Assembly (NCBI GenBank): GCA_028277795.1
Contig: JANQFP010000089.1
Coordinates: forward strand, 1-56,178
From: Rhodospirillales bacterium
GTDB taxonomy: Bacteria > Pseudomonadota > Alphaproteobacteria > Rhodospirillales > JANQFP01
Length of the DNA stretch: 56,178 nucleotides
Reading direction: 5' to 3'
Both the position numbers and the translations under genes were made by a program. Below, piece after piece: positions 8,461-14,252 of the stretch (within the stretch, counting starts at the first letter, position 1; each line of letters starts with the position of its first letter). The notes under the pieces were generated by a model. It ran no database searches, was not told where the DNA came from, and worked only from the letters and a program-made list of their open reading frames with translations.

Positions 8461-9096
8461 ATGCGCCATTCAATCGCGTTGGTTTTCGTCGCCATGCTGC
8501 TGTCCGGATGCGGTCTCTTCGCCAGCCGGTCGGACTACGAGGAACCACCGTACGACGTGGTCGAGCGGCTGGGCGAACACCTGGAGGTGCGACGCTACGG
8601 GCCGCGGGTCGCGGCCGAGGCCACCGTCGAGTCGTACGATCGCGGCACCGGGGAGTTCACCGCCTTCCGGGCCCTGTTCAAGTACATCACCGGGGAGAAC
8701 CGGGGTGGCGCGCGCATCGACATGACGGTCCCGGTCCAGGTCGCGGGCAAGCCCGAGACCATCGCCATGACGGTTCCGGTGGAGACCGCGCAGGCCGACG
8801 GCGGGACGGTCCGCATGCGCTTCTTCCTGCCCGCGTCCTACACCGTGGAATCGGCGCCGCAGCCCGTGGATACGCGGGTCCACATCGTCCGCGTGCCGGC
8901 TCAGACGGTCGCCGTCTTGCGGTTCACCGGCTCCCGCGCCGACTCGGTGGTGACCGCCAAGAGCCGGGCGCTGCTGCGCGAGCTGGCGGAGACGGCGTGG
9001 CGCCCGGCCGCGACGCCGGTGGCCTACGTCTACGATCACCCGTGGACCCTTCCGTTCCTGCGCCGAAACGAGGTCGCCGTCGTCGTCGAGCAATAG
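8461..9096 (+). CDS. SOUL haem-binding family lipoprotein
   Basis: A 211-residue protein with an N-terminal lipoprotein signal (hydrophobic core followed by the lipobox LLSGC, Cys17). The SOUL domain follows, starting at PPYDVVERLGEHLEVRRYGP and including FKYITGENRGG and IDMTVPVQV. The family binds haem or tetrapyrroles. In a bacteriochlorophyll-making organism a membrane-anchored tetrapyrrole chaperone or scavenger is plausible but unproven. The gene is divergent from the ECF sigma gene, so it could share that regulatory region. Confidence 0.85.
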   Translation: MRHSIALVFVAMLLSGCGLFASRSDYEEPPYDVVERLGEHLEVRRYGPRVAAEATVESYDRGTGEFTAFRALFKYITGENRGGARIDMTVPVQVAGKPETIAMTVPVETAQADGGTVRMRFFLPASYTVESAPQPVDTRVHIVRVPAQTVAVLRFTGSRADSVVTAKSRALLRELAETAWRPAATPVAYVYDHPWTLPFLRRNEVAVVVEQ

Positions 9097-9442: not shown

Positions 9443-10324
9443 CTACAGGCCCAGCGCGCGCAGGTCCAGCCGTCCGTCGCCCACCGGCGGGCACCAGAAG
9501 TAGCCGCCGGAGATGGGCCGCGAGAAGCGGAACAGGCCGTCGGTGATGCCGTCGTCGGCGCCGGTCATGCGGCGGAGCTGCGCCTCGAAGGCGTCCAGCG
9601 AATGGCCGAAGGCGACGAACATCAACCCCTCGCCCGACTCGTCGGCCCACGGCATGGAGCGGCGGACCACGAACGCCTCGGGCTCGAAGCTCTCCTGGGC
9701 GGTGCGCTTGACGTGGGCCGACGGTGGCGCGTCGTCCAGCTCCTCGTTGTCGCTGAGCCGGCGGCCGATGATGTGATCCCGTTCCCCCTGGGGGAGCGAT
9801 TCGAAATGGTCCAGGTCGTGCTGCCATGTCTGCACGGCGACGAAGCTGGACCCGTCCAGGCCCGCGCCGCGGCCGGCGACCACGGCCGCCACGGCGGCGG
9901 CATCGCCGGTGGGGTTCTCGGTGCCGTCCTCGTAGCCGGACAGATCGAGCCCCCGGTCGTACTTGAAGCCGTCGGTCAGGCGGTCGAGCTCGAAGGCGTC
10001 CTCCAGGGCCTGCTCCACGGCCCGGCCGGCGTGCACCAGGTGCCCGCGGTCGGCGCCGCGCAGCCAGCACCACAGGTCGGTCTGGGTGGACGGGACCGCG
10101 CAGCCCGGTCCGGCCAGGGCGGGGAACGGGCGCAGGCCGTCGACGGCCCGGCGCAGGGCCCCGACCAGCGCCGGCCCCAGGCCGACCACGGCGCCCTCGT
10201 CCACACCGGCGTCCCGCAAGGCCGCGAGGGCGTGGGCAGGCTCGGAGTCGGGCAGCAGGCTGAACTCCATATGGCGGCTCAACGGGGGAACGTCGGCAAG
10301 GATACCGGGTTGCGATTGGGTCAT
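9443..10324 (-). CDS. Dyp-type peroxidase (B-type, YfeX-like)
   Basis: A 293-residue haem peroxidase. The family signature GxxDG is present as GYEDGTENP (residues 130-138, catalytic Asp near 133). A likely proximal haem ligand is His204 in the SAHVKRT segment, and the distal Arg falls within VVRRSMPW (about 219-226). ATG at 10324 was selected because GAGG lies 6 bases upstream; the long upstream extension to 10693 is non-coding in character. No Tat signal is present, so it is predicted cytoplasmic. The family oxidises dyes and porphyrinogens, and some members can be loaded into encapsulins. No encapsulin shell gene is adjacent. Confidence 0.9.
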   Translation of the reverse strand: MTQSQPGILADVPPLSRHMEFSLLPDSEPAHALAALRDAGVDEGAVVGLGPALVGALRRAVDGLRPFPALAGPGCAVPSTQTDLWCWLRGADRGHLVHAGRAVEQALEDAFELDRLTDGFKYDRGLDLSGYEDGTENPTGDAAAVAAVVAGRGAGLDGSSFVAVQTWQHDLDHFESLPQGERDHIIGRRLSDNEELDDAPPSAHVKRTAQESFEPEAFVVRRSMPWADESGEGLMFVAFGHSLDAFEAQLRRMTGADDGITDGLFRFSRPISGGYFWCPPVGDGRLDLRALGL

Positions 10325-10765: not shown

Positions 10766-10809
10766 TGTCAAAATGAGCTGACACTTTTTGTCGTCACTCT
10801 TTCTTGACA
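10766..10809 (+). promoter_or_regulatory. PpsR/CrtJ double operator upstream of pucBA
   Basis: Box 1 at 10766-10783 is a perfect TGT-N12-ACA palindrome. Box 2 at 10792-10809 is CGT-N12-ACA. They are separated by 8 bp, the canonical spacing for cooperative binding of the aerobic photosynthesis repressor PpsR/CrtJ. Box 2 overlaps the predicted -35 hexamer TTGACA (10804-10809), so bound repressor would occlude RNA polymerase. The regulator gene itself is not in the window. Confidence 0.8.
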
Positions 10810-10832
10810 TTTACGACCGCATCGCTAAGAAT
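10804..10832 (+). promoter_or_regulatory. Predicted sigma-70 promoter of pucBA
   Basis: The -35 element is TTGACA (10804-10809, 6/6 match) and the -10 element is AAGAAT (10827-10832, 4/6 match), with a 17-bp spacer. Transcription would start near 10839, giving a leader of about 70 nt before pucB. Confidence 0.6.
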
Positions 10833-10908: not shown

Positions 10909-11073
10909 ATGGCAACTGATTTGGACGATCCGGATCGGGTATGGCCAACCGGCCTAACGATCAAGGAATCGGAGGAACTGCACAAGCACGTCATTGACGG
11001 GACGCGTGTGTTCTTCGCGATCGCGATCTTCGCGCATCTGCTCGCATTCGCCTTTTCACCATGGGGCGGATAA
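10909..11073 (+). CDS. pucB: Light-harvesting complex 2 (B800-850) beta subunit
   Basis: A 54-residue antenna apoprotein with a single membrane helix. The diagnostic segment [13 protein letters not shown] precedes the helix, with conserved His25. The bacteriochlorophyll-binding His43 lies in [10 protein letters not shown], and the chain ends SPWGG. This pattern matches LH2 beta chains of the Rhodoblastus acidophilus type. In the membrane it pairs with PucA in rings that pass excitation energy to LH1 and the reaction centre. A ribosome binding site (TAGGAG, 10896-10901) precedes the ATG. Transcription is predicted to be controlled by the PpsR boxes and promoter at 10766-10832. Confidence 0.96.
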
Positions 11074-11084
11074 GGAGGTAAGTC

Positions 11085-11228
11085 ATGAATCAAGGCAGGA
11101 TCTGGTGCGTTGTTAACCCCTCGGTGGGGTTGCCGCTGTTCCTGGGGGCAGTTGCGTTGATTGCGCTCCTCGTGCATTACGCACTCATTGAGAAGACGAC
11201 TTGGATGGCCCAATACTGGGGCGGCTAG
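11085..11228 (+). CDS. pucA: Light-harvesting complex 2 (B800-850) alpha subunit
   Basis: A 47-residue antenna apoprotein. It begins [17 protein letters not shown], typical of LH2 alpha chains, where the N-terminal formyl-Met ligates B800. His31 is the B850 ligand. Tyr44-Trp45 in the tail are the residues that hydrogen-bond the B850 acetyl groups, predicting an 850-nm rather than an 820-nm form. The usual longer C-terminal tail is missing, so the chain is short. It follows pucB by 11 bp with a strong GGAGG site (11074-11078), and the order B then A is standard. Confidence 0.96.
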
Positions 11229-11345
11229 TCAGAACACTCTGTCCCGGAGAAGACTGCTGACTAACGGGGGGGCGGGACCAACTGAACGCTCCCCCATTCC
11301 CTCTGTGGCCGGACGACAGCCACGGACCAACGTGGGAGCGTGAAC

Positions 11346-12062
11346 ATGACACTGATCGTTCGGGTATACGACTCCGAAAAGAAAGCTCGTGACGCGGCCA
11401 AGAAGCTCAAGGCCGACGGGTTCGGCGACGTTCTCGTCCTGGCGCCAAAGGCCGGCGGCGAAGGCGCGGCCAAGGCGGACTACGGCAGGGACGTCGCGGA
11501 TGCAGTCAGGGGCGGGCGTTTTCCGAGAGCCTCCAGCAGGATGGCGGCCGACAGTTTGCAAAAGGGTCGGGCGGTCCTGTGCGTCGACGCGCCCTACGGC
11601 GCCGGCAAGGCCGCGAACGAGATCGTGGAGAGCTTCGGCCCGATGGAAGTCAAAGAACAGGCGGAGCCGTTCGACTTCAATTCCGGGCTCACTTCCGATG
11701 CATTCAACGTGCCCTTGCTGCAGGACGGTTATACCCTGGCGAATTGGTTCGGTGGCTTGCTGAAGAGCTCGGATTACACCTTCTCGTCGTTCCTGAATCT
11801 GGCCCTCGTCACCGACGACCCGGCGCCCCTGTCATCGCGCCTTCGGTTGAGCGTGCTGTCGGACCCCAAGAAACCCTATACGGTCGGCGAACCGACCCTG
11901 TTGTCGGATCCCGCACCGTTGTCGACACGCTTCAGGTTCGACGTACTGTCCAAGCCGAAGAAGGATTGGACGCAAAGCTTCGGTCGGCCGCTGTTGATGA
12001 AAAACAACCCGACACCGCTGTCCGACCGCTTGGGCTGGTCCGTCCTGAGCAAGAATTCCTGA
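11346..12062 (+). CDS. LH2-linked protein with triplicated PLSxR repeats, function unknown
   Basis: A 238-residue protein that I do not recognise as a named family. The start is ATG at 11346, with GGGAG 8 bases upstream. Residues 1-100 (VRVYDSEKKARDAAKKLKAD, later KGRAVLCVDAPYGAGKAANE) resemble the small alpha/beta fold of YflT-like stress proteins, by weak similarity. The C-terminal half contains three tandem repeats: DPAPLSSRLRLSVLS (158-172), DPAPLSTRFRFDVLS (188-202) and NPTPLSDRLGWSVLS (221-235). A more decayed unit lies near 143-156 (DYTFSSFLNLALVT). There is no signal peptide or obvious transmembrane helix. It lies 117 bp after pucA on the same strand and before a strong terminator, so it is probably co-transcribed with pucBA. 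An antenna assembly or membrane-organising role is inference from position. Confidence 0.85.
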   Translation: MTLIVRVYDSEKKARDAAKKLKADGFGDVLVLAPKAGGEGAAKADYGRDVADAVRGGRFPRASSRMAADSLQKGRAVLCVDAPYGAGKAANEIVESFGPMEVKEQAEPFDFNSGLTSDAFNVPLLQDGYTLANWFGGLLKSSDYTFSSFLNLALVTDDPAPLSSRLRLSVLSDPKKPYTVGEPTLLSDPAPLSTRFRFDVLSKPKKDWTQSFGRPLLMKNNPTPLSDRLGWSVLSKNS

Positions 12063-12081: not shown

Positions 12082-12111
12082 CAGCCGCGCCGTAAAGGCG
12101 CGGCTGTTTTT
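12082..12111 (+). terminator. Rho-independent terminator of the pucBA unit
   Basis: A perfect 9-bp stem AGCCGCGCC/GGCGCGGCT (12083-12091 and 12097-12105) with loop GTAAA is followed by GTTTTT. It lies 20 bp after the stop of the repeat protein, which supports a pucB-pucA-repeat-protein transcript ending here. Confidence 0.85.
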
Positions 12112-12412: not shown

Positions 12413-12455
12413 TGTCAGTTTTACCTGACGCTCATACTGTCAATCTTACTTGACA
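12413..12455 (+). promoter_or_regulatory. PpsR/CrtJ double operator upstream of pucC
   Basis: Box A at 12413-12430 is TGT-N12-ACG (one mismatch to TGT-N12-ACA). Box B at 12438-12455 is a perfect TGT-N12-ACA. They are 7 bp apart. Box B overlaps the predicted -35 hexamer, the same geometry as upstream of pucBA, so both antenna units should respond to the same repressor. Confidence 0.78.
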
Positions 12456-12477
12456 TCCGTTCGGGCGCTGATAGACT
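12450..12477 (+). promoter_or_regulatory. Predicted sigma-70 promoter of pucC
   Basis: The -35 element is TTGACA (12450-12455) and the -10 element is TAGACT (12472-12477, 4/6 match), with a 16-bp spacer. The leader before the pucC GTG would be about 170 nt. Confidence 0.55.
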
Positions 12478-12656: not shown

Positions 12657-14252
12657 GTGGGCCGCGTAACGCAGAGACTGATCAAGGGCTGGGTGTCGCT
12701 GGGCCCGCGCTTCTTGCCCTTCGCCGACGTCGCCACGCCGGACCTGCCGCTCAGGCGTTTGCTGCGCTTGTCCCTGTTCCAGATCTCCGTCGGCATGGTG
12801 CTGGTGCTGCTGGTCGGGACCCTCAACCGCGTCATGATCGTCGAGCTGGACGTCCCCGCGTCCCTGGTCGGCGTGATGATCGCCCTGCCCATCGTCTTCG
12901 CGCCGTTCCGCGCGTTGATCGGCTTCCGGTCCGATACCCACCGCTGCGAGCTGGGCTGGCGGCGGGTCCCGTTCATCTGGAAAGGCTCCCTGCTGCAGTT
13001 TGGCGGTTTCGCGGTCATGCCGTTCGCCATCCTGGTGCTCGCCGGGAAGGGGGAATCCGCTGCGCTCCCCGTTTGGATCGGCCAAGCCAGCGCCGCCATC
13101 GCCTTCCTGCTGGTGGGGGCGGGCGTGCACACCGTGCAGACCGTCGGCCTCGCCCTTGCAACGGACCTGACGCCGCCGGAATCCCATCCCAAGGTCGTCG
13201 GTCTGATGTACGTGATGCTGCTGGTCGGCATGATCGCCAGCGCCCTCATCTTCGGCGTCGCGTTGGCGGACTTCTCGCCGGGCCGGTTGGTGCAGGTGGT
13301 TCAGGGCGCCGCCGTCGCCACCCTGCTGCTGAACGGGATCGCCATGTGGAAGCAGGAGACGCGACGACCGCCAAGAGGGGCTGCGGCACCGGCCGCCGAC
13401 CCGACGTTCCGCGAATCCTGGGCAACCTTCTGTGCCGGTGAGTCCACGGTGCGCCGACTGGTGATCGTCGGCATCGGCACCATGGCCTTCGCCATGGCCG
13501 ACATCCTGCTCGAACCCTATGGCGGACAGATCCTCCATATGAGCGTCTCGGCGACCACCAAGCTCACGGCCTTGCTGGCACTCGGCGGCCTCATCGGGTT
13601 CGGCTATGCCTCCTACGTTCTCGGCCGCGGCGGCGATGCCTACCGCATGGCACAGACCGGCGCCATCATCGGTCTGCCGGCTTTCGTCTTCGTCATCATG
13701 GCGGCCCCCGCGAACCAGCCGATCCTGTTCCTGATCGGCAACTTCCTGATCGGCTATGGCGCCGCGCTGTTCAGCCACGGCACCCTGACCGCGACCATGA
13801 ACCGGGCGCCCAAGGACCAGGCCGGTCTGGCGCTCGGCTCATGGGGCGCCGTCCAGGCCACGGCCGCCGGTTGCGCCATGGCGCTCAGCGGGACCCTCCG
13901 CGATATCGCGAACGCCACCCTCGGGGCGGTGGAACAGCTTTGGGGCCTGGCCGCGAAGGCGAGCGGCTACATGACGGTCTACTCGCTGGAGATCGTCCTG
14001 CTCCTGGTGACCATCGTCGCCACCATCCCGCTGATCCAGCGCGCGTCGGCGGCCGCGCCGGTCGCCGCCCCCGCGCCCGACCGGGACGCCGGGCCGACCG
14101 AATCCCAACCCAAGCTCTCCGGCAGCCTGTCCACCTCGCAAGGTCACGCCAATGCCCCAGCTCACCATCCTCGAATACCCGGACCCCCGCCTTCATTTGC
14201 AGGCGAAGCCGGTGACCGCGTTCGACGCAAGCCTGGACCGGCTCATCGATGA
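12657..14252 (+). CDS. pucC: PucC-type light-harvesting assembly transporter (BCD/MFS family)
   Basis: A 531-residue polytopic membrane protein of the bacteriochlorophyll delivery branch of the major facilitator superfamily. Typical segments are FADVATPDLPLRRLLRLSLFQ, MIVELDVPASLVGVMI, PFRALIGFRSDTH, the LATDLTPPESHPKVVGLMYVMLLVG loop, and LLEPYGGQILHMSVSATT. PucC/LhaA proteins are required for assembly of LH2 or LH1, probably by supplying pigment to the nascent alpha/beta chains. The start is GTG at 12657 with a weak ribosome site. The C-terminal tail past about residue 470 is hydrophilic, and the frame runs 101 nt into the following def gene. This is unusual: members are typically about 460-480 residues, so the tail may reflect a lost stop or a recent frameshift. 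Confidence 0.92.
   Translation: MGRVTQRLIKGWVSLGPRFLPFADVATPDLPLRRLLRLSLFQISVGMVLVLLVGTLNRVMIVELDVPASLVGVMIALPIVFAPFRALIGFRSDTHRCELGWRRVPFIWKGSLLQFGGFAVMPFAILVLAGKGESAALPVWIGQASAAIAFLLVGAGVHTVQTVGLALATDLTPPESHPKVVGLMYVMLLVGMIASALIFGVALADFSPGRLVQVVQGAAVATLLLNGIAMWKQETRRPPRGAAAPAADPTFRESWATFCAGESTVRRLVIVGIGTMAFAMADILLEPYGGQILHMSVSATTKLTALLALGGLIGFGYASYVLGRGGDAYRMAQTGAIIGLPAFVFVIMAAPANQPILFLIGNFLIGYGAALFSHGTLTATMNRAPKDQAGLALGSWGAVQATAAGCAMALSGTLRDIANATLGAVEQLWGLAAKASGYMTVYSLEIVLLLVTIVATIPLIQRASAAAPVAAPAPDRDAGPTESQPKLSGSLSTSQGHANAPAHHPRIPGPPPSFAGEAGDRVRRKPGPAHR

Follow-up and report, generated by a model that had tools for sequence, protein, structure and literature searches.

The window, i.e. 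the whole 56,178-nucleotide stretch of Rhodospirillales DNA analysed here, carries an LH2 antenna locus in which pucB and pucA are followed by a gene for an LH2-linked repeat protein, hereafter X, and then by pucC (Table 1). X was accepted as a true gene because it is conserved at 29-45% identity in other families, as found by protein and then profile searches; a GTG at 11340, two codons upstream of the listed start, is also a possible start codon. The preliminary description had called the product unrecognised, and this held, since no Pfam or NCBIfam family reached its cut-off with X and the LHC alpha/beta family PF00556 gave no match; weak Pfam matches to DUF7336, ActD and SPOR, as well as an FtsJ match at 0.0008, which is below the cut-off, were set aside as chance or fold-level similarities. 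Palindrome and promoter pairs precede both pucB and pucC, and a terminator-like hairpin follows X, so pucB-pucA-X reads as one unit and pucC as the next, and both units would be under the same kind of control; the TGT-N12-ACA palindromes we take, from established knowledge, to be of the PpsR/CrtJ type. The earlier placement of X on the antenna transcript, between pucA and a terminator, thus agrees with the promoter and hairpin as read. The 117-nt gap between pucA and X folds more stably than shuffled sequences (z -2.8), and intercistronic hairpins in puc and puf are frequently stable. Genes for a SOUL haem-binding protein and a Dyp-type peroxidase, at 8461-9096 and 9446-10324 (minus strand), immediately precede the puc genes.

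Table 1. Genes, protein regions and putative control signals at the LH2 locus of the window
Feature	Position	Strand	Basis
PpsR/CrtJ-type palindrome TGTCAAAATGAGCTGACA, upstream of pucB	10766..10783	+	TGT-N12-ACA match
Sigma-70-like promoter TTGACA-17-AAGAAT for pucB-pucA-X	10804..10832	+	consensus scan, 10 of 12
pucB, LH2 beta subunit	10909..11073	+	PF00556 E 2.2e-7
pucA, LH2 alpha subunit, Tyr44-Trp45, B850 type	11085..11228	+	PF00556 E 6.5e-11, residues read
Gene X, LH2-linked repeat protein, 238 aa	11346..12062	+	ORF list, translation, homologue searches
N-terminal ferredoxin-like alpha/beta domain of X, residues 1-100	11346..11645	+	AlphaFold2 pLDDT about 90
Repeat tail of X, units starting at residues 117, 147, 163, 193, 209, 226	11694..12059	+	autocorrelation, motif model
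Intrinsic-terminator-like hairpin, stem of 10 pairs, then T5	12082..12106	+	sequence scan
PpsR/CrtJ-type palindrome TGTCAATCTTACTTGACA, upstream of pucC	12438..12455	+	TGT-N12-ACA match
Sigma-70-like promoter TTGACA-16-TAGACT for pucC	12450..12477	+	consensus scan
pucC, LH2 assembly / BChl delivery protein, start codon uncertain	12657..14252	+	PF03209 E 7e-146

Structure prediction by AlphaFold2 divided X into two parts. Residues 1-100 were confidently modelled as a domain with the element order E-H-E-H-H-E-H, in line with the small N-terminal alpha/beta region described before, and no stable structure was predicted for the tail, either alone or attached to the N-domain. The N-domain aligned with PII and CutA folds at Z about 8 over 65-73 residues (rmsd 2.1-5), with 12-20% identity and Foldseek E-values above 0.05, a common arrangement from which we deduce neither a function nor a ligand site. 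Through the N-domain alone the X profile also matched, among others, proteins with a YflT / general stress protein 17M domain (PF11181), which is similar in size and element order; YflT proteins, however, have no repeat tail, and X scores below the PF11181 cut-off, namely with no match at E up to 1 for X itself and a match at E 0.04, still below the cut-off, for one divergent member (L060).

The tail contains the three PLSxR copies of the preliminary description, DPAPLSSRLRLSVLS, DPAPLSTRFRFDVLS and NPTPLSDRLGWSVLS, at intervals of 30 and 33 residues. In the last 135 residues autocorrelation peaked at lags 30, 63 and 15, the best of these peaks being equalled by only one of 2000 shuffles (P 0.0005), and the N-terminal 100 residues displayed no periodicity in the same analysis (P 0.34). 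A motif model built on 109 units from 20 proteins defined a unit of 16 residues, S-S-M-F-G-M-P-T/L-L-S-K-N and then x-x-P-L, with G-x-P-L-L-S-K as its core and hydrophobic positions alternating along it. The repeat of about 15 residues reported earlier is therefore real, but the elementary unit across the family is 16 residues long and the PLSxR repeat is a double unit. Six units are recognisable in the window X, at spacings of 30/16/30/16/17, and the commonest form of the family starts with a single unit and, after a gap of 25, continues with six more spaced by exactly 16, the six being contiguous in L004, L007, L008 and L049; a period of 16/32/48/64 was strict in most members. Unit number ranges from 1 to 11 (1-5 in short forms, 11 in the gammaproteobacterial form) and protein length from about 160 to 395 aa, and the Rhodobacterales-like form retains a core PIPLISRRKP at a pitch of 25, the label "Rhodobacterales-like" of this family (f53) having been inferred from the LH2 type and partial DNA matches to Paracoccus. 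The longest tail, about double the usual, belongs to the X of 395 aa in a Gammaproteobacteria MAG (L058, 5959-7143), which is flanked by two LHC gene pairs. Two tandem X genes follow pucC at L106 (5069-6169 and 4175-4855, minus strand), the first with about eight similar 25-residue repeats (MANWPIPLISRRKPADNFAFPRHAR).

Repeat-bearing X was found in 28 genomes, mostly of Alphaproteobacteria, plus one of Gammaproteobacteria and one Gemmatimonadota MAG, and in all 28 the LH2 genes pucBA lay within about 3 kb of it, usually together with pucC (G705 included). Whether homologues always neighbour pucBA, a question raised with the preliminary description, can thus be answered affirmatively for every genome in which the full-length protein was found. 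The arrangements were pucBA-X-pucC (12 genomes, window included), pucBA-pucC-X (8), pucBA-X-pucBA-pucC (2), pucBA-X with no pucC seen (2), divergent (2), convergent (1) and X-pucBA-pucC (1); as the gene orders vary and the company is constant, a functional tie is favoured over a frozen neighbourhood. In a class-wide draw of 385 genomes, LHC genes were present in 27 and LH2-type pairs in 12 of these, namely 11 with at least four LHC genes and G414 (84% complete), whose sole pair lies beside X. X occurred in 11 of the 12 LH2-bearing genomes and in none of the 373 others, LH1-only and LHC-free ones alike, apart from one chance match rejected as X (G693), which holds two stops in a genome without LHC. 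The probability that all 11 X genomes fall among the 12 LH2-bearing ones by chance is 2e-20, kinship ignored. The exception, G443, has a pucBA-pucC locus without X, and its family likewise lacks X, so that X is not essential for LH2.

Of the 17 genomes in the order of G463, four carried LHC genes, and exactly these four had full-length X; in the window's own order X was found in G000, G039, G083 and G090, and the other genomes with extra LHC pairs, inspected directly or via a congener, had a different LH type and lacked X, with pucC also missing from the stretch read. Viral contigs yielded no relatives of X, and the plasmid collection no X; in the two plasmid records that were read, PucC was part of the LH1/puh region. 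Outside LH2 genomes only the N-domain was found, widespread in YflT or DUF2382 proteins, and no full-length homologue turned up in a non-phototroph away from antenna genes. These N-domain-only relatives, which also occur in genomes without LH2, would suit a general stress protein of the YflT/GSP17M type that lies near LH2 genes by chance and has no antenna role, an explanation made very improbable by the restriction of the repeat-bearing form to LH2 genomes across many gene orders. Two further matches were not counted as X, i.e. the N-domain-like L102, and L103 (415-1941, 509 aa), a protein with repeated LSLFSRFPIPLHRLFGVFRDAL-like units from a genome of another class, with no LH2 genes in view, which is probably unrelated.

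The assignment of a few contigs should be read with care. At L056 (5986-6462), X stands with pucBA and pucC on a contig binned as Longimicrobiales (Gemmatimonadota), and it is possible that the LH2 cassette was transferred horizontally or that the contig was wrongly binned. PucC of L056 and of L058 branched deep in the tree, outside any alphaproteobacterial pair, and contamination or mis-binning could still account for both contigs. A second contig of G913 looked rhizobial, so that assembly may be mixed.

The antenna subunits at the X loci displayed features of their own. A Cys at position 8 was present in nearly all canonical X-linked alpha chains and absent from G443 and from the divergent X loci L012, L013, L059 and L080, and this residue may mark a lineage or a contact site. 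Most X-linked alpha chains carry Phe at position 44 and F/L/I/V/M at 45, from which a blue-shifted LH2 of the B800-820 type is predicted; the window, L005/L054 and L012 keep Tyr-Trp. In L069 (2775-3125) and L070 (3265-3564), an LH alpha-type ORF with C-terminal EEAAPAA repeats adjoins a second LH pair.

The position of X relative to pucC bears on two further explanations. In R. capsulatus, pucD and pucE follow pucC at the end of the puc operon, their products stabilise B800-850, and PucE is about 14 kDa. X could be the counterpart of either product with the repeats as a lineage extension, which would be compatible with the ribbon mechanism proposed below and which we consider somewhat unlikely: X directly follows pucC in eight genomes (L055, L057, L059 and L104-L108), Rhodobacterales-like and some others, and the tandem pair at L106 occupies the pucD-pucE place, whereas X of the window is placed between pucA and pucC, and X proteins of about 160-395 aa are larger than PucE. 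According to a 1989 title cited in PMC4949548, R. capsulatus requires genes lying downstream of pucBA for its B800-850. The earlier statement that none of pucC, pucD and pucE looks like X is too firm, as X takes the pucD/pucE place after pucC in some genomes; pucC itself is still present in the window, just downstream with its own promoter. X might also be an assembly factor that acts with PucC, holding alpha and beta chains or BChl while the ring closes and leaving afterwards, in which case it would be no part of the finished ring. Such a factor would show the same LH2 linkage as a ribbon subunit, so the linkage does not separate the two; pucC is the commonest neighbour of X after pucBA, with X on either side of it, and the X and PucC trees agree on two main groups, to the extent that the weakly resolved tree of the X N-domain shows them. 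However, a catalyst-like helper needs no regular repeats, and the window X groups with the structural genes, pucC having its own promoter after the terminator, so that we regard a pure assembly role as unlikely.

The closest structural precedent, and the only LH2 ribbon known, is the gamma subunit of Rps. palustris LH2, reported in Rhodopseudomonas only. It forms an extended ribbon outside the ring, close to the cytoplasmic side, and has six repeats, one per alpha-beta pair, each holding BChl through a serine (PMC9618040). Its structures are PDB 7zcu (chain S), 7zdi, 7ze3 and 7ze8, and its repeats, read from the chain sequence, are 16 residues long. A PDB profile search with the whole X profile returned chance matches only; gamma was retrieved with its own repeat as the query and not with that profile. 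Both proteins are tied to LH2 of phototrophs, X by its genomic linkage; gamma has six tandem 16-residue repeats and the commonest X form 1+6 units of 16; gamma is extended and not helical, and the X tail is predicted without structure. The units match in a single register, G-x-P-L-[IL]-x-K, at a marginal profile similarity (p 0.026 and 0.038, column permutations). In contrast, the Mg/BChl-ligating serine of gamma stands before the Gly, where X has F/L/I/M/W and its serines lie at other columns, and gamma has 97 aa and no folded domain, whereas X has an N-domain and 2-4 times the length. X was therefore not taken as a member of gamma, given the BChl-binding serine out of register and the marginal similarity. 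The earlier suggestion was that X may cap, space or dock LH2 rings with each repeat contacting one subunit; for one repeat per subunit, the gamma ribbon offers a structural precedent (PMC9618040).

The family of X is thus genuine and LH2-specific, carries no curated name and has an architecture that fits a ribbon subunit. By analogy with gamma, we give about even chances to X being an accessory subunit of LH2, each of its repeats touching one alpha-beta pair. X would be expressed with pucBA from one transcript and share its PpsR-type control by light and oxygen. Its flexible tail would offer a row of 6-7 short motifs, mostly 16 residues apart, each bound to one alpha-beta pair at its cytoplasmic or outer face, and would thereby follow a portion of the LH2 ring as an extended ribbon. 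Such a ribbon would make the ring more stable or set its size and might carry additional pigment, and the folded N-domain, presumably cytoplasmic, would cap it or link it to something else. An unstructured tail is what is expected of a ribbon that orders on its target, and the alternating hydrophobics of the unit would suit an extended strand on a surface. Against this, the spacing is inconstant: units 1 and 2 stand 25 apart, the window has two spacings of about 30, and Rhodobacterales-like forms have 25, which is at odds with a strict ribbon of one repeat per subunit.

Because the spacers vary and binding of X to LH2 is something we infer, the assembly factor keeps a place beside the ribbon, as does a multivalent tether in which each repeat binds a different LH2 ring or core complex and so clusters antennae. 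Repeat proteins such as EPYC1 and CsoS2 gather their partners into clusters, and the disordered tail, spacers of 15-40 residues, 1-11 units and a PII/CutA-like N-domain, whose namesakes are trimeric, would all suit such a protein; but most members keep a spacing of exactly 16, too short for the distance from ring to ring and too regular for a loose tether, and we judge tethering quite unlikely.

A broader proposal, which we hold to be doubtful, makes X the founding member of a widespread class of LH2 ribbon subunits that arose independently of gamma, wrap the ring with repeats that bind pigment or set ring size, and bear a regulatory N-domain. LH2 is the textbook two-subunit ring; if the proposal were true, LH2 of many uncultured purple bacteria would be a three-component complex. 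If X is an LH2-linked repeat protein with the 16-residue pitch of gamma and a far wider distribution, accessory ribbons would be common. X gives a way into the question of what determines ring size and 800 nm absorption. It also supplies a named target in several families and a possible link to the old and little-explained pucD/pucE genes.
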